Assembly: GCF_003285545.1 (NCBI RefSeq)
Contig: NZ_QLNV01000007.1
Location: 1-64,000, forward strand
Source: Sinomicrobium soli
GTDB lineage: Bacteria > Bacteroidota > Bacteroidia > Flavobacteriales > Flavobacteriaceae
DNA: 64,000 nt
Direction of reading: 5' to 3'
Shown here: piece after piece, positions 949-61,502 of the stretch
Layout of the letters: each line of letters begins with the position of its first letter
Position numbering within the stretch: position 1 is the stretch's first letter
Made by a program: the position numbers and the translations under genes
The notes under the pieces: model-generated
What the model saw: only the letters and a program-made list of their open reading frames with translations
Databases searched by the model: none
Told to the model about the DNA's origin: nothing

Positions 949-3357
949 ATGCGTACTGAAACAGATTCCCGGAAAGACATCACCTTCGATGATTTCAAAA
1001 CACAGGTCCTGCACGACTACAGGATCGCCGTTACCAGCCGGGAATGCAGTTTACTGGGACGCAGGGAAGTACTTACCGGCAAGGCCAAATTCGGGATTTT
1101 CGGCGATGGCAAGGAGGTGCCCCAGCTGGCGATGGCCAGGGCATTCCGCAACGGGGATTTCAGGAGCGGTTACTATCGCGACCAGACCTTTATGATGGCC
1201 ATAGGCGAATTTACGCCCCGGCATTTTTTTGCAGGCCTCTACGCCCATACCGACATCGAAAAGGAACCCATGAGCGCCGGGCGCCAGATGGGAGGGCATT
1301 TCCTGACGTACAGCATGGATGAAGAAGGGAACTGGAAAGACCTTACCCAACAGAAAAACAGCAGTAGCGATATTTCCCCCACTGCCGCCCAGATGCCGAG
1401 GCTCCTGGGACTGGCACAGGCTTCCAAAATATACCGGCAGGTGCCCGGAACCGACAGCCGTGGCTTCTCCGAAAACGGCAATGAAGTTGCCTGGGGAACC
1501 ATAGGAAATGCCAGTACCAGCGAAGGCCTGTTTTTCGAAACGGTCAATGCAGCCGGCGTATTACAGGTTCCTATGGTGATCAGTATCTGGGACGATATGT
1601 ACGGTATTTCGGTACATGCCAGGCACCAGACCACCAAGGAAAATATAGCCGAAGTACTGAAAGGCTTCCAGAGGGATGACAAACCCGGGCTGGAGATCGT
1701 GGTGGCAAAGGGATGGGATTACCCCACCCTGGTGGAGACGTATGAACAGGCCGGAAAGACAGCCAGGGAAGAACATGTTCCCGTACTCATCCATGTCACC
1801 GAACTCACACAGCCACAGGGGCATTCCACTTCGGGTTCACACGAGCGGTACAAGAGCAAAGAACGTCTCGAATGGGAAAAGGCCCATGACTGCAACCTGA
1901 AAATGAGGGAATGGCTGCTGGACAATGGCTTTGCTTCGGAAGAAGAACTCATAGCCCTCGAAAAAGAAGTCAAGAAAGAAGTACGCGAAGCCAAAAAAGA
2001 GGCCTGGGACGATTTTACAAGGCCGATAAAGCATAAAAAGAAAGAAGCGGTCGGCCTGCTGGACAGCCTGGCAGGCGTGAGTGCAAACAAGTCGTTTGTC
2101 AACAAGCTGAAAAACGACCTGATCGCCATTGACGAACCGGTCAAAAAGGATATTCTCTCCCTGACCAGGAAGGCATTGCGGTATGTGATCCGGGAATCTT
2201 CCCCGGAGAAGGACGCCCTGTCTGCCTGGATAGACCACTACCTGAAGGAAGAACAGCCGAATTACAGCTCCCTGCTGTACAGCGAACTTCCGAACAGGGC
2301 CACCAATATCCCGGAAATTCCGCCGATTTACGGGGACCACCCCGAAATGGTGGACGGCCGTATCATCATCCGTGACAACTTTGACCGCCTCTTCGGCAAA
2401 CACGCCAATGTGCTGGTGTTCGGGGAAGACAGCGGTAATATAGGCGATGTCAACCAGGGACTGGAAGGCTTACAGAAAAAATACGGCGAGCTCAGGGTGT
2501 CGGATACCGGTATACGGGAAGCCACCATCCTCGGGCAAGGTATAGGGCTTGCACTCCGGGGGCTACGTCCCATAGCAGAAATACAATACCTCGATTATAT
2601 TCTCTACGCCCTGCAGACCATGAGCGACGACCTGGCCTCCCTGCATTACCGCACCTACGGGAAGCAGAAAGCGCCGGTTATCGTAAGGACCAGAGGGCAC
2701 CGGCTTGAAGGGATCTGGCACGCAGGCTCACAAATGGGAGGGCTCATACACCTCCTCCGGGGCATGTATATCCTCACCCCGAGGAACATGACCAAGGCTG
2801 CAGGCTTTTACAACACCCTGCTGGAAAGTGACGAACCGGCCCTGATCGTGGAAAGCCTCAACGGATACCGGCTTAAGGAACGCCTTCCGGAAAACCTTGG
2901 GGAATACAGAACCCCGATCGGGAAAATAGAAGTGGTCAGGGAAGGAAAAGACATTACCCTTTTGTCTTACGGCTCTACGTTCCGTATCGTGGAACAGGTG
3001 GCCAGAGACCTTATGGAAACAGGTATCGATGCCGAGGTCATCGATGCACAGACCCTGCTCCCCTTCGACATACACGGTGAAACGCTGGAAAGTGTCAAAA
3101 AGACCAGCCGCCTGCTCATTATCGACGAAGATGTTCCCGGCGGGGCCTCTGCCTATCTCATGCAGGAAATTGTTGAAAAACAGGGCGCATACCGCTATCT
3201 CGACAGTGCCCCGCAGACCCTTACGGCCCGGGCACACCGGCCTGCCTACGGTACGGATGGTGACTATTTCTCCAAACCCAATGCAGAAGACATCTTCGAA
3301 AAGGCATACGGTATCATGCACGAAGCAGACCCTCAACGGTTCCCGGCGCTTCGGTAG
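949..3357 (+). CDS. Fused 2-oxoacid dehydrogenase E1 (alpha + beta)
   Basis: An 802-residue thiamine-diphosphate enzyme with the E1 alpha-like half (about residues 1-380) and the E1 beta-like half (about 465-790) in one chain. It should decarboxylate a 2-oxo acid (branched-chain 2-oxo acids or pyruvate) and reductively acylate the lipoyl group of an E2 subunit. The alpha half shows EVAWGTIGNASTSEGLFFE and DDMYGISV. The beta half shows EDSGNIGDVNQG, GIREATILGQGIGLALRGLRP and the C-terminal IDAQTLLPFD / IDEDVPGGASAY regions. A charged Lys/Glu-rich linker (about 340-370) lies between the two lobes. No E2 or E3 gene is adjacent, so the partners are encoded elsewhere. This fused architecture is common in Bacteroidota; substrate preference cannot be read from the sequence. 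Confidence 0.9.
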   Translation: MRTETDSRKDITFDDFKTQVLHDYRIAVTSRECSLLGRREVLTGKAKFGIFGDGKEVPQLAMARAFRNGDFRSGYYRDQTFMMAIGEFTPRHFFAGLYAHTDIEKEPMSAGRQMGGHFLTYSMDEEGNWKDLTQQKNSSSDISPTAAQMPRLLGLAQASKIYRQVPGTDSRGFSENGNEVAWGTIGNASTSEGLFFETVNAAGVLQVPMVISIWDDMYGISVHARHQTTKENIAEVLKGFQRDDKPGLEIVVAKGWDYPTLVETYEQAGKTAREEHVPVLIHVTELTQPQGHSTSGSHERYKSKERLEWEKAHDCNLKMREWLLDNGFASEEELIALEKEVKKEVREAKKEAWDDFTRPIKHKKKEAVGLLDSLAGVSANKSFVNKLKNDLIAIDEPVKKDILSLTRKALRYVIRESSPEKDALSAWIDHYLKEEQPNYSSLLYSELPNRATNIPEIPPIYGDHPEMVDGRIIIRDNFDRLFGKHANVLVFGEDSGNIGDVNQGLEGLQKKYGELRVSDTGIREATILGQGIGLALRGLRPIAEIQYLDYILYALQTMSDDLASLHYRTYGKQKAPVIVRTRGHRLEGIWHAGSQMGGLIHLLRGMYILTPRNMTKAAGFYNTLLESDEPALIVESLNGYRLKERLPENLGEYRTPIGKIEVVREGKDITLLSYGSTFRIVEQVARDLMETGIDAEVIDAQTLLPFDIHGETLESVKKTSRLLIIDEDVPGGASAYLMQEIVEKQGAYRYLDSAPQTLTARAHRPAYGTDGDYFSKPNAEDIFEKAYGIMHEADPQRFPALR

Positions 3358-3700
3358 TTTTAGTTCGTAGTTTGGTAGTTCTTAGTTCTTAGTTGCAGTT
3401 TAGTCACAATGTCATTCTGATCGAAGCGCAGCGGAGGAAGAATCTCCCCACACGATCAAAGGAAATTCAACAGCATCACCGAAAGACCTGAGATTCCTCC
3501 TATCGTCGGAATGACAAGCCTCTGTTATTCTGATCGAAGCGCAGCGGAGTGAAGAATCTCTGCTCCCGGATCAAAGAATCTTCAACAGCATAACTGAAAG
3601 ACCGGAGATCCCTCGACTGCGCCCGGGATGACACTCCTGTTATTCTGAGCGGAGCGCAGCGAAGTCGAAGAATCTCCAATCCTGCTCAAAGTATCTTCAA
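3357..3700. repeat. Intergenic repeat cluster (TTAGTT tract plus three CATTCTGA elements)
   Basis: The gap after the E1 gene starts with a degenerate TTAGTT(C/G) tract. Three head-to-tail units follow, each reading CATTCTGA(T/G)CGAAGCGCAGCG... GAATCTC..., with spacers containing CAAAG.A..TTCAACA. The units are about 110 bases apart. No gene is visible. The last part of the gap up to the antiporter start is AT-rich leader. Confidence 0.8.
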
Positions 3701-11142: not shown

Positions 11143-11501
11143 ATGAAATTATCAGAAAACAATAAAAGGACTCTTTTAGTTTCAATCCACCAAATGGAGG
11201 ATTAACAGAATCCGAAAAATTAGAATTAGAAAAGCTGGAAATTAATCCGACTTTAAAAAGTGCGTTGAGAAAAGTTTTGGCAAGCAATACTGCTGATGTT
11301 TTTTTCTCATTCCTCAATATTGTTGACGGAACAGCTGACCCAAATATAGAGTTCGGAGAATGGGAAGAAGTAATGTTAGTTGACTTTGACGAAGACAACG
11401 AGATGGATTCAATGCTTCACGACGACTTTTATGGAACTTATTGGGATTGGAAAGAAAAAAGACCAAATCCTGGCTGGAAATTGGACTTGTTAGATGAATA
11501 A
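11143..11501 (+). pseudogene. Small acidic protein gene with a single-base frameshift
   Basis: The frame open from 11265 (TTG) to 11501 encodes an acidic protein ending NPGWKLDLLDE. Upstream of it the same frame continues as FNPPNGGLTESEKLELEKLE back to a stop. Restoring one A in the A-run at 11164-11167 joins it to an ATG at 11143 (MKLSENNKKDSFSF...), giving a plausible 119-residue protein. I therefore read it as one gene with a one-base deletion, or a sequencing error in a homopolymer. I do not recognise the family. It sits between cassette-like end sequences (GTTGTGTAAC before, GCTGTACAAC after). Confidence 0.55.
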
Positions 11502-11526
11502 AAAACGCTGTACAACAATGGTAACC

Positions 11527-12992
11527 GTTGCACAAGCCCATAAATTATAAAATACCGGCGGCCGTAACCAAATTTTTAAGGTGTTTTTGTTTTTTAGACG
11601 ACTTAGTAAAGCGGGCTGTTTACAAGGGGTAAAACCAATTTTTGAGCCTATAGGGGTCGATTTTTAACGAAAAATAGCGGTATACAATCCCTGCTCCACT
11701 TTTCACCCGTTTTTGAGTGAATTTTAGGTACTTTTTCAGGTTGTATGCTATGGCTGACAGATACATGCATTTGTTAGCCTGGCTAAGGCCTTTGGTATTT
11801 ATTTTCCCAAGGCCCATAAATTGGGTAAGGATGCCAAAAACAGGCTCTACCGTGCTTTGACGCTTACCTTTCATATAGCGTCCTTGTGGGCTGTTGACCC
11901 GTTCTATGTTGCGCTCGTATTCTTTACGATATGCCGTAACACTAATCCGTTTCTCATGGCTGTTGCCTATGCATTGGACCTTGATCGGGCAACCTTTACA
12001 GTCACTACGCCTGGTAAAGTACAGATCCTTTAGGGTACCTTTCTCAAGTTTTTGCTTTCGGAAGGTAACTTTTTTACCTTGTGGGCACAACCAGTAATTA
12101 TCTTTTTCCACAAGAATAAAGCCTTTCGGGCCGCCTTTGTAGGTGCCGTGTGGTGGTATAAAACTTTTTATCCCCTTACCCTCTAAAAAGGCATAGTTCT
12201 CTCCACTGCTATACCCCGTATCGGTCACACAGTTTTCCCATACTACCCCTGTTTTCCATAGCCTTCTTTGTACCCGCTTTACAATATCGGGCAGCTGATT
12301 TCCTGCAACTCCTTCTTGCTCGCAGAGAGGGTTTGTTGACTTGCCGGAGCCTTATTGTTTTTTGCTTTGCGTAGCGGCTGTTCTTTATCCCCCTCACTGA
12401 TATGGCGGAGCTTTCTTAAATGGGCCTCCAAATCTTCTTCCGGAACTTTCAACTCCAAACTGTCCATAGAAGCATTGGCCTTTACCGGGGCACTATCGAT
12501 GGCCTGGGTATGGCCACTGACCATCCCTGCTGAGATACACAACCCGAACACCTTGGTGAAGACTTCTTCAAACACTTGCTGTGGAAACAGCTGCCGGGTA
12601 CGGCTGATGGTAGAATGCCAGGGAAGTTCCTCATCGATATCATAATCCAGAAAAAACAGTATATCTAAACGCATACTACAATGATCCATTAGCCTACGGT
12701 CACTGGTGATGTTCTCTAAATACCCTACCTAACAAAGTTTGAAGAACACGACCGGATCGATACTCTTCTGGCCGCTGCTGCCATAATACCCTTTAGTAAG
12801 TGGGTATAGGTATTCCAAATCCAACGCCTCTTTTAACCGGCGGTAGAAGTTCTGTTCCGGCACCCGATCACTCAATCGGAACTGGCTGAACAACTTCTCT
12901 TGATATATTTTTTTGCCTTGCATACTTCAAGGTAATGACCCTATGAAAAATTAACATCAATCCTGTGTGAATTTTTTGCTAACTTGTGCAAC
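11527..12992 (-). mobile_element. IS1182-like insertion sequence, degenerate
   Basis: An element of about 1.47 kb bounded by imperfect terminal inverted repeats. The left end reads GTTGCACAAGCC and the right end, on the opposite strand, GTTGCACAAGTT. It holds a single broken transposase gene on the minus strand. I see no convincing target-site duplication (AACC left, AGGC right). It sits exactly where the AACAATGGTAACC end of one cassette-like unit would meet the next. The left 303 bases recur at 13794-14096. Confidence 0.75.
11620..12923 (-). pseudogene. IS1182-family DDE transposase, broken
   Basis: Three consecutive minus-strand pieces form one transposase of about 430 residues. The N-terminus (MQGKKIYQEKLFSQFRLSDR ... 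DPVVFFKLC) ends at an amber codon. Reading through it continues as VGYLENITSDRRL into the middle piece (LDILFFLDYDIDEELPWHST ... AIDSAPVKANASMDSLEL). A frame change near the end of KKELQEI leads into LPDIVKRVQRRLWKTGVVW and the C-terminal piece (VTDTGYSSGENYAFLEGK ... STVEPVFGILTQFMGLGKIN). One nonsense codon and one frameshift inactivate it. The order and motifs fit IS1182/IS5-like DDE enzymes. Confidence 0.85.
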
Positions 12993-13479: not shown

Positions 13480-13782
13480 ATGGAAAAATTAGCAAATGTA
13501 CACCCTGGAGAGGTTTTAAATTTTGAATTTCTTGAGCCACTTGAAATCTCGGCTTATAGACTTTCTAAAGACTTAAAAATACCGCAAACTAGGATTTCGG
13601 AAATAATAAAAGGTAGACGCAGAATAACAGCTGATACAGCTCTTCGTTTGAGTAAATATTTTGGAAATTCTGCTAAATTCTGGCTTGGACTTCAAGATGA
13701 TTATGACATCGAAGAGGGACGTGACGAAAAAAAAGCAGAATTGGACGAAATCAAAAAACACGAAAATAAAAACGTTGCCTAA
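13480..13782 (+). CDS. higA: HigA-family antitoxin (XRE helix-turn-helix)
   Basis: A 100-residue DNA-binding antitoxin. The VHPGEVLNFEFLEPLEISAY N-terminus and the helix-turn-helix KIPQTRISEIIKGRRRITA, followed by LSKYFGNSAKFWLGLQ, are diagnostic of HigA. It should bind HigB and repress the operon through the palindrome upstream of higB. The C-terminal tail is Lys/Glu-rich. The stop codon lies within GCCTAAC, which matches the integron R-double-prime core RYYYAAC and mirrors the GTTAGGC before higB. Confidence 0.92.
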   Translation: MEKLANVHPGEVLNFEFLEPLEISAYRLSKDLKIPQTRISEIIKGRRRITADTALRLSKYFGNSAKFWLGLQDDYDIEEGRDEKKAELDEIKKHENKNVA

Positions 13783-13793
13783 CAATGGTAACC
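13774..13793. other. Right boundary of the HigBA cassette-like unit
   Basis: GTTGCCTAAC here is the exact reverse complement of GTTAGGCAAC at 13119-13128, so the HigBA module is bounded by inverted core-like sequences. It is followed by AACAATGGTAACC, the same sequence that precedes the IS at 11527. Confidence 0.55.
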
Positions 13794-14096
13794 GTTGCAC
13801 AAGCCCATAAATTATAAAATACCGGCGGCCGTAACCAATTTTTAAGGCATTTTTGTTTTTTAGACGACTTAGTAAAGCGGGCTGTTTACAAGGGGTAAAA
13901 ACCAATTTTTGAGCCTATAGGGGTCGATTTTTAACGAAAAATAGCGGGATACGATCCCTGCTCCACTTTTCACCCGTTTTTGAGTGAATTTCAGGTACTT
14001 TTTCAGGTTATATGCTATGGCTGACAGATGCATGCATTTGTTAGCCTGGCGAAGGCCTTTGGTATTTATTTTCCCAAGGCCCATAAATTGGGTAAG
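13794..14096 (-). mobile_element. IS1182-like remnant (end fragment)
   Basis: A 303-base near-identical copy of the first 303 bases of the IS at 11527, differing by a few substitutions and small indels. It carries the left terminal repeat GTTGCACAAGCC and the last ~80 codons of the transposase (FMGLGKINTKGLRQANKCM...), then stops abruptly at a junction with unrelated coding sequence. It is a deletion or recombination scar, not a mobile copy. Confidence 0.85.
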
Positions 14097-20461: not shown

Positions 20462-20482
20462 CCTGCCTGGCCGGCAGGCAGG
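20462..20482. repeat. 21-bp GC-rich palindrome (CCTGCC-GGCAGG module)
   Basis: CCTGCCTGGCCGGCAGGCAGG, one of at least five copies in the window (others near 24185, 33675, 45141 and 61072). Here it lies in a 236-base intergenic gap with no other recognised feature. Confidence 0.8.
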
Positions 20483-23992: not shown

Positions 23993-24485
23993 CAAACGGA
24001 ACTGCCATACTTGCCCGTGGGATTATTAGTTCTTAGTTCTTAGTTGTTAGTTGCTGGTTATTGCACCCGAGTGCAGTGGCTTTGTCATTCCGACCGGAGT
24101 GCCTGTCCCGACCTTTTAGTCGGGGAGGAATCTCCGGCGTTCCCTTTATGCTGTTGAAGTTCCTGTGTGCCGGGGTGGAGATTCCCTGCCTGACCGGCAG
24201 GCAGGTTCACTTTCCCGATACTCGGTACAGGCTGTTCTGAATGACAATTTCCGGCTTCCGATCATTTCGTCGTTTGCAAACTGGCGATAGTATCCAGGCA
24301 TTACTCCAATAACTCAATAACCCAACAACTCAACAAGTGTTAATTATATATTAAGTACACCGGTTATTCCCCCGATAATTAATAAATTGCTAATGCAAAA
24401 TTAACCGGTGTATATTTTAAATATTCCGAATTTTGTGTTGTTCGTTTGAACTCCCATAAATGATTATTTGAGTTAGTTAGTTTGG
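23993..24485. repeat. Intergenic repeat cluster, no gene
   Basis: This ~490-base gap holds a TTAGTT-rich tract (near 24027), then a CATTCCGA...GAATCTCC element carrying the inner hairpin GTCCCGAC..TTAGTCGGG. A second, inverted element follows, containing the 21-bp palindrome at 24185-24205 and ending CTGTTCTGAATGAC. AT-rich sequence follows. I see no coding sequence. Confidence 0.75.
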
Positions 24486-32668: not shown

Positions 32669-33601
32669 TTAAATCGTCAGATAGACAAAACAAGCGTAAA
32701 GCCCCAGCAGGATAACCCCCTCCAGCTTGCCCAGTCTCATGTTCCTGGGCATTATGACGAGTAACAATATCAGGAAGGCATATCCCAACATCCAGAAGAT
32801 ATCTGAATGGATCAGGCGTTCATCACTTGCCCTTACGGGTGTTATCATGGCGGTTATACCCAGTACTGCGAGAATATTAAATACGTTAGACCCGATCAGG
32901 TTGCCCAGGGAAATAGCTTTTTCCTTGCGCAATACGGCAATGATGGAGGCTGCCAGCTCGGGAACACTGGTACCTACGGAAACAACGGTGACGGCGATCA
33001 CGCGTTCACTGACCCCGTAATGGGCCGCAAGCCCTACCGCTCCCCTGATCAGCAATTCTGAACCTCCCCAGAGCGCTGCTCCTCCTATAAGAAGGAACAG
33101 GAAAATTCTTAATGGCGCCGGTACACTTCCTTCCATGTCCGCAACTTCATCCGGCACCTCCTGCTTGCTGCGGAACATCACCAGCAGGAACAGGATAAGG
33201 CCGGAAAACAGGATAATCCCTTCCCATCGCTGAAGTACCCCGTCGAAATAAATCAGGCCGAAAAACAACAATGACGTAATGATCAGGGCAGGCCAGTCCA
33301 GCCGGTAAAAGCTTTTTTGCACCTCTATATTTCCCAGAATTACGGTAAGCCCGAGCACCAGGCCTATATTGGCTATGTTAGAGCCTACGACGTTCCCCAG
33401 TGCTATGTCGGGAAAACCATCCAGGGCAGATTTCACACTTACGATAAGTTCGGGAGCGGAAGTAGCAAAAGAGACTACAGTCATCCCGATCACCATTCTC
33501 GGGATATGAAGCCGTAACGACAGGCCTACGGCGGCACGAAGCAGCCAGTCTCCCCCGATAACCAGCAATACCAGTCCGATAATAACAAAGAGAAGGTTCA
33601 T
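32669..33601 (-). CDS. Calcium/sodium antiporter (CaCA family, YrbG-like)
   Basis: A 310-residue inner-membrane protein with about ten transmembrane segments in two inverted halves. Each half carries the ion-binding alpha-repeat: SFATSAPELIVSVKSAL near residue 45 and SVGTSVPELAASIIAVL near 210, together with GNVVGSNIANIGLVLG and GNLIGSNVFNILAVLG. These motifs identify the K+-independent Ca2+(Na+)/H+ or Na+ exchanger family. It stands alone. The direction and driving ion are inferred from the family. Confidence 0.92.
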   Translation of the reverse strand: MNLLFVIIGLVLLVIGGDWLLRAAVGLSLRLHIPRMVIGMTVVSFATSAPELIVSVKSALDGFPDIALGNVVGSNIANIGLVLGLTVILGNIEVQKSFYRLDWPALIITSLLFFGLIYFDGVLQRWEGIILFSGLILFLLVMFRSKQEVPDEVADMEGSVPAPLRIFLFLLIGGAALWGGSELLIRGAVGLAAHYGVSERVIAVTVVSVGTSVPELAASIIAVLRKEKAISLGNLIGSNVFNILAVLGITAMITPVRASDERLIHSDIFWMLGYAFLILLLVIMPRNMRLGKLEGVILLGLYACFVYLTI

Positions 33602-33830
33602 TAGTTTCTTAGTTCTTAGTTGTTAGTTATTAGTTGTTAGTTATTAGTTGTTAGTTTGTCATTCCGACCGCAGTGCCTGCCGGCCGGACAGGCAGGTTCA
33701 CTTTCCCGATGCTCGGTACAGGCTGTTCTGAATGACAACTTCGGACTTCCTGCTTCGCAATCCCGACTCCCGACTTCGGACTTCAAACCATTTCATCGTT
33801 TACAAACTAACGATAGTTTTTTTATTACGT
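33602..33830. repeat. TTAGTT tract and composite CATTCTGA/palindrome element
   Basis: Immediately before the antiporter start (minus gene) lie about seven TTAGTT(G/A) near-repeats. A composite element then runs from GTCATTCCGACCGCAGTGCC through the palindrome at 33675-33696 and TTCCCGATGCTCGGTACAGG to CTGTTCTGAATGACAA. Its ends (GTCATTC / GAATGAC) are inverted repeats. There is no gene in the gap. Confidence 0.75.
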
Positions 33831-44900: not shown

Positions 44901-45250
44901 TCATTCAGAGAACTAACATTTGAACAACCGCATAAATGGAGATGACATTTTAGTCTTCATTGATCAAATGTGATAAACCTACACATAACTCCTCCCTTCA
45001 GACGAAGGGAGGTGGCTCATCTTCGATGAGACGGAGGGTTTTGAAAGCCCGGATCATAAGGATAATCCCAAACGTTTGGGGATATACGCTAAAGTTCGGG
45101 CCGGTCAAAACTCCCCGGCCAGCGTAGCTGCCCACCCCTCCCAGCCTGTCCGGCAGGCAGGTTCGTTTGAAGAGGGGAGTTTTTGAAATGGAGCAACTTA
45201 CCATAGATACGTCATGGGTAACGGAGCGCAGCGAAGGGAAGAATCTCCCC
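44901..45250. repeat. Long dispersed intergenic element, copy 1
   Basis: About 350 bases, close to 90 percent alike by eye to 61175-61502. It starts TCATTCAGAGA and contains the hairpin CCTCCCTTC/GAAGGGAGG, the conserved block GGTGGCTCATCTTCGATGAG, and a second hairpin ending GAGGGGAGTTTTT that looks like a terminator. It ends in a CATTCTGA-family tail (GAGCGCAGCGAAGG ... GAATCTCC). This copy carries an extra 21-bp palindrome at 45141-45161. No protein reading frame is conserved between copies. Confidence 0.85.
45141..45161. repeat. 21-bp palindrome inserted in the long element
   Basis: CCAGCCTGTCCGGCAGGCAGG lies between CACCCCTC and TTCGT(T/C)TGAAGAGG. In copy 2 of the element (near 61412) those two flanks are directly joined, so the module is cleanly present here and absent there. 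Confidence 0.85.
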
Positions 45251-60958: not shown

Positions 60959-61174
60959 GAGGGGGGAGTTTATAGTTTTTTAGTTTGTAGTTCTTAGTTG
61001 TTAGTTCGTAGTTTTTAGTTCTTAGTTGCTGGTTGGGCTCATCAAATGTCATTCAGAACGAAGTGAACCCGCCTGTCCGGCAGGCAGGGAATCTACCCCC
61101 AGGCACATAAGGAACTTCAACAGCATAACGGAAGCCCCGGAGATTCCTCCTATCGTCGGAATGACAAAGCCCTG
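60959..61174. repeat. TTAGTT tract and palindrome-bearing CATTC element
   Basis: Begins with about eight TTAGTT/TAGTTC near-repeats, then GTCATTCAGAACGAAGTGAAC, the palindrome CCTGTCCGGCAGGCAGG (61072-61088), GGAATCTACC and a second, inverted tail ending TCGGAATGACAA. No gene. Confidence 0.75.
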
Positions 61175-61502
61175 TCATTCAGAGACCTAACGTTTGGTCA
61201 ACCGCATCAATGGAGATGACGTTTTTGTCTTCATAGATCAAATTTGATAAACCTACACATAACTCCTCCCTTCAGATGAAGGGAGGTGGCTCATCTTCGA
61301 TGAGACGGAGGGTTTTGAAAGCCCGGATCATAAGGATTAATCCCAAACCTTTGGGGATATACGCCAAAGTTCAGGCCGGTCAAAACTCCCCGGCCAGCGT
61401 AGCTGCCCACCCCTCTTCGTCTGAAGAGGGGAGTTTTTGAAATGGAGCAACTTACCATAGATACGTCATGGGTAGCGGAGCGCAGCGGAGGGAAGAATCT
61501 CC
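61175..61502. repeat. Long dispersed intergenic element, copy 2
   Basis: Partner of the element at 44901. It has the same order of hairpin CCTCCCTTC..GAAGGGAGG, conserved block, terminator-like hairpin CCCCTCTTCGTCTGAAGAGGGGAGTTTTT split here as arms CCCCTCTTC and GAAGAGGGG, then GGAGCAACTTACCATAGATA and GAATCTCC. It lacks the 21-bp palindrome found in copy 1. A short frame crossing its end is not conserved and is not a gene. Confidence 0.85.

Follow-up and report, generated by a model that had tools for sequence, protein, structure and literature searches.

A 20-bp palindrome that interrupts bacterial repeats and tRNA fragments, and its association with a small GIY-YIG nuclease gene

The palindrome and its host repeats in the window

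The window, i.e. the entire 64,000-nucleotide stretch of Sinomicrobium soli DNA analysed here, forms the start of contig C41 in a genome of 4.61 Mb and 43 contigs (G000). It contains copies of a short GC-rich palindrome, referred to as P, alongside members of two host repeat families, a ~330-bp element and a GTCATTC...GAATGAC repeat (Table 1). The consensus of P is the perfect 20-bp palindrome CCTGCCTGCCGGCAGGCAGG, of which the 21-bp copy in the ~330-bp element is a variant. In copy 1 of this element, ...CACCCCTC is followed by CCAGCCTGTCCGGCAGGCAGG and then by TTCGTTTGAAGAGG, whereas in copy 2 CACCCCTC directly abuts TTCGTCTGAAGAGG. The initial annotation also listed four near-copies; those at 20462 and 24185 were placed exactly, while those given at 33675 and 61072 were one and four bases off, respectively.

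Table 1. Copies of P and of the host repeats in the window (.. denotes a range; / marks an insertion point or junction).
Feature	Position	Strand	Remark
~330-bp host repeat, copy 1	44901..45250	+	occupied, P inside
~330-bp host repeat, copy 2	61175..61502	+	empty, junction 61415/61416
GTCATTC...GAATGAC repeat	61048..61167	+	occupied; directly upstream of ~330-bp copy 2; right end set by eye
P, 21-bp form CCAGCCTGTCCGGCAGGCAGG	45141..45161	none	in ~330-bp element copy 1
P, 21-bp form CCCGCCTGTCCGGCAGGCAGG	61068..61088	none	in GTCATTC repeat, at GAA/GAATCT
P, CCTGCCTGACCGGCAGGCAGG	24185..24205	none for P	inside a reverse-strand GTCATTC repeat
P variant, CCTGCCGGCCGGACAGGCAGG	33676..33696	none	adjoins GTCATTC-repeat sequence lacking the usual right flank
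P, CCTGCCTGGCCGGCAGGCAGG	20462..20482	none	DNA outside both clear host families

P is far more abundant than expected. The pattern CCTGCC-N9-GGCAGG, with up to two mismatches, matches 17 times in the window (two of the matches, at 45137 and 45141, overlap) against 2.28 +/- 1.51 in shuffled sequence, with 0 of 100 shuffles reaching 17. Across the whole genome, CCTGCCTGNCCGGCAGGCAGG with up to three mismatches occurs 24 times on the forward and 35 times on the reverse strand, where one palindrome may score on both, and the reversed control pattern is found on neither. The core GCCTGN{0,1}CCGGCAGGC defines 36 distinct places in G000, with one match per strand for its reversed control, and this count tops both the 40-genome set and the 395-genome phylum set. 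Chance or base composition as the source of P is ruled out by the window shuffles, the reversed pattern and the matched control palindromes in viral contigs described below.

The ~330-bp element yields 57 matches in G000, as copies or pieces. Alignment of 19 of them revealed eight occupied and six empty copies, four ending at P, and one contig-end piece (L046), and all eight occupied copies carry the 21-bp insert at one identical point. Two of the empty copies, L037 on contig C33 and L038 on C19, show no difference over 275 bp from the occupied copy L032 on C21, the insert aside, demonstrating clean insertion and very recent turnover; for the remaining four, the nearest occupied copy shows 9 to 16 differences. 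A clean presence or absence of the palindrome in otherwise matching repeats had been claimed from the window alone, and these identical copies bear it out. An occupancy tree of the 14 whole copies requires five changes and shows no clustering; since 12 of its 15 inner branches are open, the identical copies constitute the stronger evidence. Part of the element forms an imperfect inverted repeat with itself, and at both ends the element runs into GTCATTC-repeat sequence, so that the repeats are nested. Separately, two direct repeats of ~330 bp are present at 11501-11829 and 13768-14096 of the window, spaced by ~2267 bp and 87-96% alike in pieces.

The GTCATTC family presents an analogous picture. 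A first pattern search gave 98 matches, some of them chance matches or other forms. A stricter expression, applied to 79 stretches of G000, retained 72 places, 19 occupied and 53 empty, leaving out places that do not fit it and itself requiring the insertion point between GAA and GAATCT, which is the usual one in this family. The 20-bp form CCTGCCTGCCGGCAGGCAGG is the most frequent insert (9 of the 19 occupied places), and inserts were seen with nine of 25 left-arm types. Two more copies (L334 and L339) take P 3 bp earlier, between GTC and GAAGAATCT. Among five congeners such repeats are few, with two occupied among 17 pattern matches in G004. The left arm of the repeat varies (GCGAAGC, ACGCAGT, CCGTAGG), its changes being paired in a way that resembles a small conserved hairpin, and TAGTTNT heptamer-like tandem stretches lie at 3355-3401, 24013-24073, 33596-33670 and 60960-61048 of the window, several of them adjoining P-bearing repeats.

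The occupancy tree of the 72 places required 16 changes, at least six of them forced by well-supported branches, and 169 of 500 shuffled occupancies came out as low, on an alignment with few columns and an unsettled bootstrap. In this tree units were counted by genome place; counting by sequence gave equal totals of 19 and 53, and the tree of sequence-distinct units required 15 changes, at least seven forced, with 49 of 500 shuffles as low. In both repeat families, host-sequence descent does not account for the presence of P, as judged from the identical copies and from weakly resolved trees that do not distinguish gain from loss. No target-site duplication was seen in either family; some copies elsewhere lie between short direct repeats, as in TTGCGGA-P-TTGCGGA and CACAGAGA-P-CACAGAGA. 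The notion that P is a component of one repeat family alone is ruled out by its occurrence in two families, in unrelated contexts and in tRNA-Asn fragments. The earlier suggestion of a tiny inserted unit, on the other hand, agrees with the exact empty and occupied pairs, the scattered occupancy in both families and the interrupted tRNA sequence considered below.

Distribution of the palindrome over phyla and viral contigs

The 23-mer consisting of GAA and P is present, exactly, in at least 117 stretches from one-per-species bacterial and archaeal genomes, against a chance expectation of ~0.007 for GAA plus the 20-mer by our own arithmetic for uniform random sequence. Among the 117 loci listed, the record titles name Bacteroidota for 62 and CPR-group candidate phyla for 23, followed by Planctomycetota, Nitrospirota and Ignavibacteriota (five each), Omnitrophota (three) and Verrucomicrobiota (one), with 13 titles giving no phylum. 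The exact sequence is thus shared across phyla, and as its carriers include the isolated strains Dokdonia, Niastella and Maribacter, metagenome assembly artefacts alone are insufficient to account for it. P was also detected in 33 stretches of viral contigs, compared to 0, 0 and 1 for three composition-matched palindromes searched in the same contigs. A rule that GAA precedes P, suggested by the 117-locus set, was dropped: GAA belonged to the query, and the viral set, searched without it, displays mixed flanks. The P sites among the 117 loci have unrelated flanks, tRNA pieces among them. An uninterrupted copy of the flanking sequence (24 bases, up to five mismatches) lies within 3 kb of 40 of 124 P sites, but of only 6 of 124 random sites.

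Association with tRNA genes and a GIY-YIG nuclease

Clustering of the open reading frames of at least 60 residues within 700 bp of P, performed without prior expectation, placed a ~80-residue GIY-YIG family first, with 11 loci; among the 14 largest clusters per set, the next clusters near P comprised four and three loci and the best cluster far from P four. A profile search found the nuclease in 14 of the 117 P loci listed; 13 of these have it no more than 400 bp from P, 10 of them no more than 100 bp, and in the exception, L139, it lies at 5.3 kb. The binomial tail for this proximity is 1e-11, assuming a 12% share of the locus. The other 103 loci had no GIY-YIG nuclease by profile in the stretch examined. 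Pfam assigned PF01541 (GIY-YIG) to nine of the nine frames tested, so that a gene with a homing-type nuclease fold is present in the P-bearing unit. In the alignment R28, H32 and E64, which we take to be the catalytic residues, are invariant. By sequence the nearest solved structures are UPF0213 proteins (PDB 1zg2 and 1ywl), small GIY-YIG proteins of similar size, also called YhbQ-like, for which no mobile or palindrome-linked role was found in the literature searched. The viral set contained a single GIY-YIG gene (L212), next to P in a tRNA-like D loop at which ARAGORN calls no tRNA; the other 32 of the 33 viral stretches were without one.

At several loci P splits a partial tRNA-Leu copy, which is followed by a small open reading frame and then an intact tRNA-Leu. 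Other loci are mirrored, with P in the T-loop part, and some have no frame in between. We initially considered P to reside inside working tRNA genes, an idea that was dropped as ARAGORN finds the interrupted copy accompanied by an intact tRNA. As the uninterrupted tRNA is the conserved functional state, P represents the derived state in tRNA sequence. P lies 295-364 bp from the uninterrupted junction in 13 of the 17 measurable copies (21 examined, four without a match), and an intact tRNA with an uninterrupted junction adjoins the measurable units, i.e. the uncut target persists. We interpret the arrangement as a unit that would span ~300-360 bp and comprise P, a short target stub, a copied tRNA part and one ~80-residue GIY-YIG gene. 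The unit would adjoin a tRNA gene such that one tRNA stays intact and the duplicated fragment is split by P, mostly in the D-loop or T-loop part. The order L-P-R'-ORF-L'-R may then be read as P, stub, gene and copied tRNA part inserted into a target L-R. P also occurs on its own in intergenic repeats, and the copies in the window are of this solo kind.

The link between nuclease and tRNA was also found from the protein side. From a protein search of the 395 phylum genomes, 30 loci were chosen by score, of which 28 have a tRNA gene within ~3.2 kb, two the exact 20-mer P and four more a P-like hairpin by our own judgement; this set is not blind to P, since the query alignment was built from P-linked proteins. 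Upon inspection of 31 loci by eye, the partial tRNA copy beside the gene was often split by P, a P-like palindrome or another hairpin, and hairpins such as CCCGCCTCAGGCGGG replace P in several units. A strict automatic scan covered 37 protein-selected loci. A tRNA was present in 33 of them, and 14 of the 33 had a cleanly interrupted tRNA copy, with palindromic inserts in 12 of the 14 (raw count); the remaining 19 had no clean interrupted copy under the strict terms. Outside Bacteroidota or with placement lacking, the nuclease was detected at 1e-12 in 31 of 36 genomes, all of them P-bearing and chosen from the 117 listed loci. Of 30 loci from these genomes, 22 have a tRNA or tmRNA, congruent with a recurring placement at a conserved target gene, and 10 an exact P, three of the latter (L355, L356 and L379) being already among the 117. 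The seven best by score (L355-L361) all contain an exact P, and two of the seven are identical to the previously listed L132 and L130.

Across the 395 phylum genomes, the nuclease is present at 1e-15 in 106. The P core and the nuclease occur together in 37 genomes, P only in 46, the nuclease only in 69 and neither in 243, corresponding to an odds ratio of 2.8 (p = 6e-5), a statistic that ignores relatedness. Genomes with at least three P on one strand carry the nuclease in 11 of 16 cases (p = 4e-4, relatedness likewise ignored), and those positive for the reversed control in 3 of 21. Conversely, 46 of the 83 P-positive genomes are without the nuclease at 1e-15. In one family (f32), many genomes have a P singleton that the 14-base core may match by chance; such singletons weaken the co-occurrence test.

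G000 harbours no standalone GIY-YIG gene of the P-linked family: there was no match at 1e-15, and one weak match inside a 690-residue frame. Its contig C11, though, carries two tRNA-Asn genes, each near a tRNA-Asn 5' piece interrupted in the D loop, one split by the full 20-mer P and the other by a 12-base short form. In the congener G004 a nuclease gene lies behind a tRNA-Leu piece split by the P variant CCTGCCTTTGCCGGCAGGCAGG; the contig stops within the gene, leaving the left part of the unit visible. G024, of the same family, has the whole unit order with another P variant (L217). Together with the tRNA-Asn pieces, these two cases imply that the unit is, or once was, present in this genus. 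Because no P-linked nuclease gene was found in G000, its P copies are probably leftovers of past activity, or else the nuclease acted from outside.

Further arrangements were encountered at individual loci. L250 is the first of five tandem nuclease genes evenly spaced 450 bp apart. L221 and L377 each have a GIY-YIG gene of the P-linked family next to tmRNA, with a repeat from the tmRNA end in the former and a P-like palindrome in the latter. In L254 and L258, P-like palindromes are seemingly split by a further insert (CCTGCCTGAC...CGGCAGGCAGG).

Possible mode of spread and alternatives

Our best explanation, to which we assign an even chance, is that P is the mobile hairpin module of tRNA-linked GIY-YIG elements and also spreads solo through nuclease cutting and repair. 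The nuclease would cut the uninterrupted site, a P-bearing copy of that sequence would serve as the template for repair of the break, thereby installing P, and the installed P would block recutting. Within a repeat family, repair from an occupied copy could then spread P to the same position in many copies, the pattern found in the two families. Both the protein and P are conserved across differing target sites, which suggests recognition of P by the protein or by the repair path. A simple rule, by which empty sites are cut and P protects, needs an extra condition, as the intact tRNA beside the unit keeps its uninterrupted site. Template switching at hairpins, raised in the initial annotation, may form part of the repair step. 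A more far-reaching version, which we put forward only tentatively and below even likelihood, views the 20-bp P as a selfish homing unit that blocks the GIY-YIG cut site, is copied by repair, is served in trans and has crossed phyla together with the nuclease.

P could instead be a passive passenger that rarely entered the repeat families and some tRNA fragments and was scattered by duplication and gene conversion through ordinary recombination, with no nuclease at work in G000. We judge this unlikely. In its favour, no autonomous nuclease was found in G000, the insertion point is the same in all eight occupied ~330-bp copies and in the 19 GTCATTC places (where the pattern required it), and the weak resolution of the repeat trees makes gene conversion likely. 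However, two insertion points exist within one repeat family, P appears in unrelated contexts of G000 including the tRNA-Asn fragments, and its exact conservation across phyla and link to the nuclease demand more than passive copying.

Less probable still, P-like hairpins might arise or persist for structural reasons, by fold-back synthesis, template switching within short direct repeats or selection for a hairpin that keeps the tRNA fragment from folding, with no dedicated mover. Such an origin would fit the short direct repeats around some copies (those of TTGCGGA and of CACAGAGA) and the different hairpins that stand in for P in some units. Structure alone, however, demands no single sequence, whereas the same 20 letters recur in many phyla, and the matched control palindromes are nearly absent from viral contigs.

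Comparable elements have been described in organelles. Some homing endonuclease elements, such as Allomyces ORF360 at atp6, bring along a duplicate of the target gene's end and so leave the gene functional. The P units resemble them in the placement of a nuclease gene beside a gene with a duplicated end, but they differ in targeting tRNA or tmRNA and in the conserved palindrome that splits the duplicated piece. Allomyces mitochondrial double-hairpin elements and Fusarium mitochondrial palindromic repeats are, in the excerpted account, optional palindromes taken as mobile (PMC7218506); they have other sequences, are organellar and, in the same excerpt, are tied to no GIY-YIG unit. The GC clusters of yeast mitochondria, such as the 42-bp GC42, are mobile GC-rich palindromes with sporadic presence or absence, horizontal spread and high rates of gain and loss, and intron-encoded endonucleases have been proposed to help their movement (PMC4478555, in excerpt). 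Judged from that excerpt, P shares the short GC-rich palindromic form, sporadic occurrence, high turnover and horizontal spread, and it analogously forms clean empty and occupied pairs and has a presence not explained by host descent. On the other hand, GC42 is mitochondrial and 42 bp long, while P is hosted by bacteria of many phyla, and for GC42 the excerpt mentions neither a stable physical tie to a single nuclease family nor one to interrupted tRNA copies.

In the open-licence PubMed Central papers searched we found no description of P or of its link to GIY-YIG. For mitochondrial DNA, such mobile palindromes are a matter of debate, and no mover for them had been defined, according to the excerpted source (PMC4478555). 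Since P is tied, both physically and statistically, to one nuclease family and to interrupted tRNA copies, in isolated strains included, the question of what moves such palindromes becomes testable. If the selfish homing version is true, P would rank with the smallest mobile DNAs known and, as a bacterial counterpart, would account for the mitochondrial GC clusters. The P units would also represent a widespread kind of tiny, tRNA-based element among Bacteroidota and candidate-phyla bacteria and provide the explanation for a class of intergenic palindromes.

The initial annotation had raised a REP/TnpA-like mover as one option. On such a reading, a Y1-HUH (RAYT/IS200-like) transposase would mobilise P in the manner of a REP. 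The proposed search for such a gene retrieved two near-identical Y1-HUH (RAYT-like) genes in G000, L058 and L059, 3.1 kb apart on contig C5, and revealed no link between P and REP/RAYT transposases. P does resemble REPs and REPINs in being a short, intergenic, multi-copy palindrome of similar size and hairpin shape that serves as an insertion sequence target. Moreover, REP hairpins bear a GTAG/CGTC-type tag at their foot, as given in the excerpt of PMC3733652, and the words GTAG, CTAC, CGTC or GACG occur within eight bases of P in 24 of 125 copies against a background of 369 of 4067, about a doubling, part of which may be accounted for by tRNA-Leu sequence (GGTAGAC). Against this, the words are absent from the other 101 copies, and the L059 protein, used as the one query and suited to close relatives, has no relative among the frames of the 117 P loci or the 33 viral stretches. 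Six chosen frames with an HUH-like motif do not match the Y1 family by Pfam, and it is GIY-YIG that recurs at the P loci. P also interrupts tRNA copies and is shared across phyla, unlike REPs. On its flanks, L058 has a hairpin distinct from P, CCGCACGATACAATCGTGCGG (CCGCACGAT..ATCGTGCGG), apparently a REP belonging to that gene. On these grounds we discarded a REP/RAYT mover, which has become very improbable.

That P is merely the footprint of an insertion sequence is barely credible, although all six ends of one such sequence, at the ends of contigs C3, C8, C11, C14, C16 and C21 (L060-L065), fall inside P directly after GCCTGNCCGG: the insertion sequence, known from these ends, interrupts P, which is therefore its target in G000, and P occurs in many other genomes and units. 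Analogously, REPs also serve as targets of insertion sequences, as the excerpt of PMC1525189 describes. At two further contig ends, L047 and L050, CAGGCAGG follows what appears to be the opposite end of the insertion sequence.
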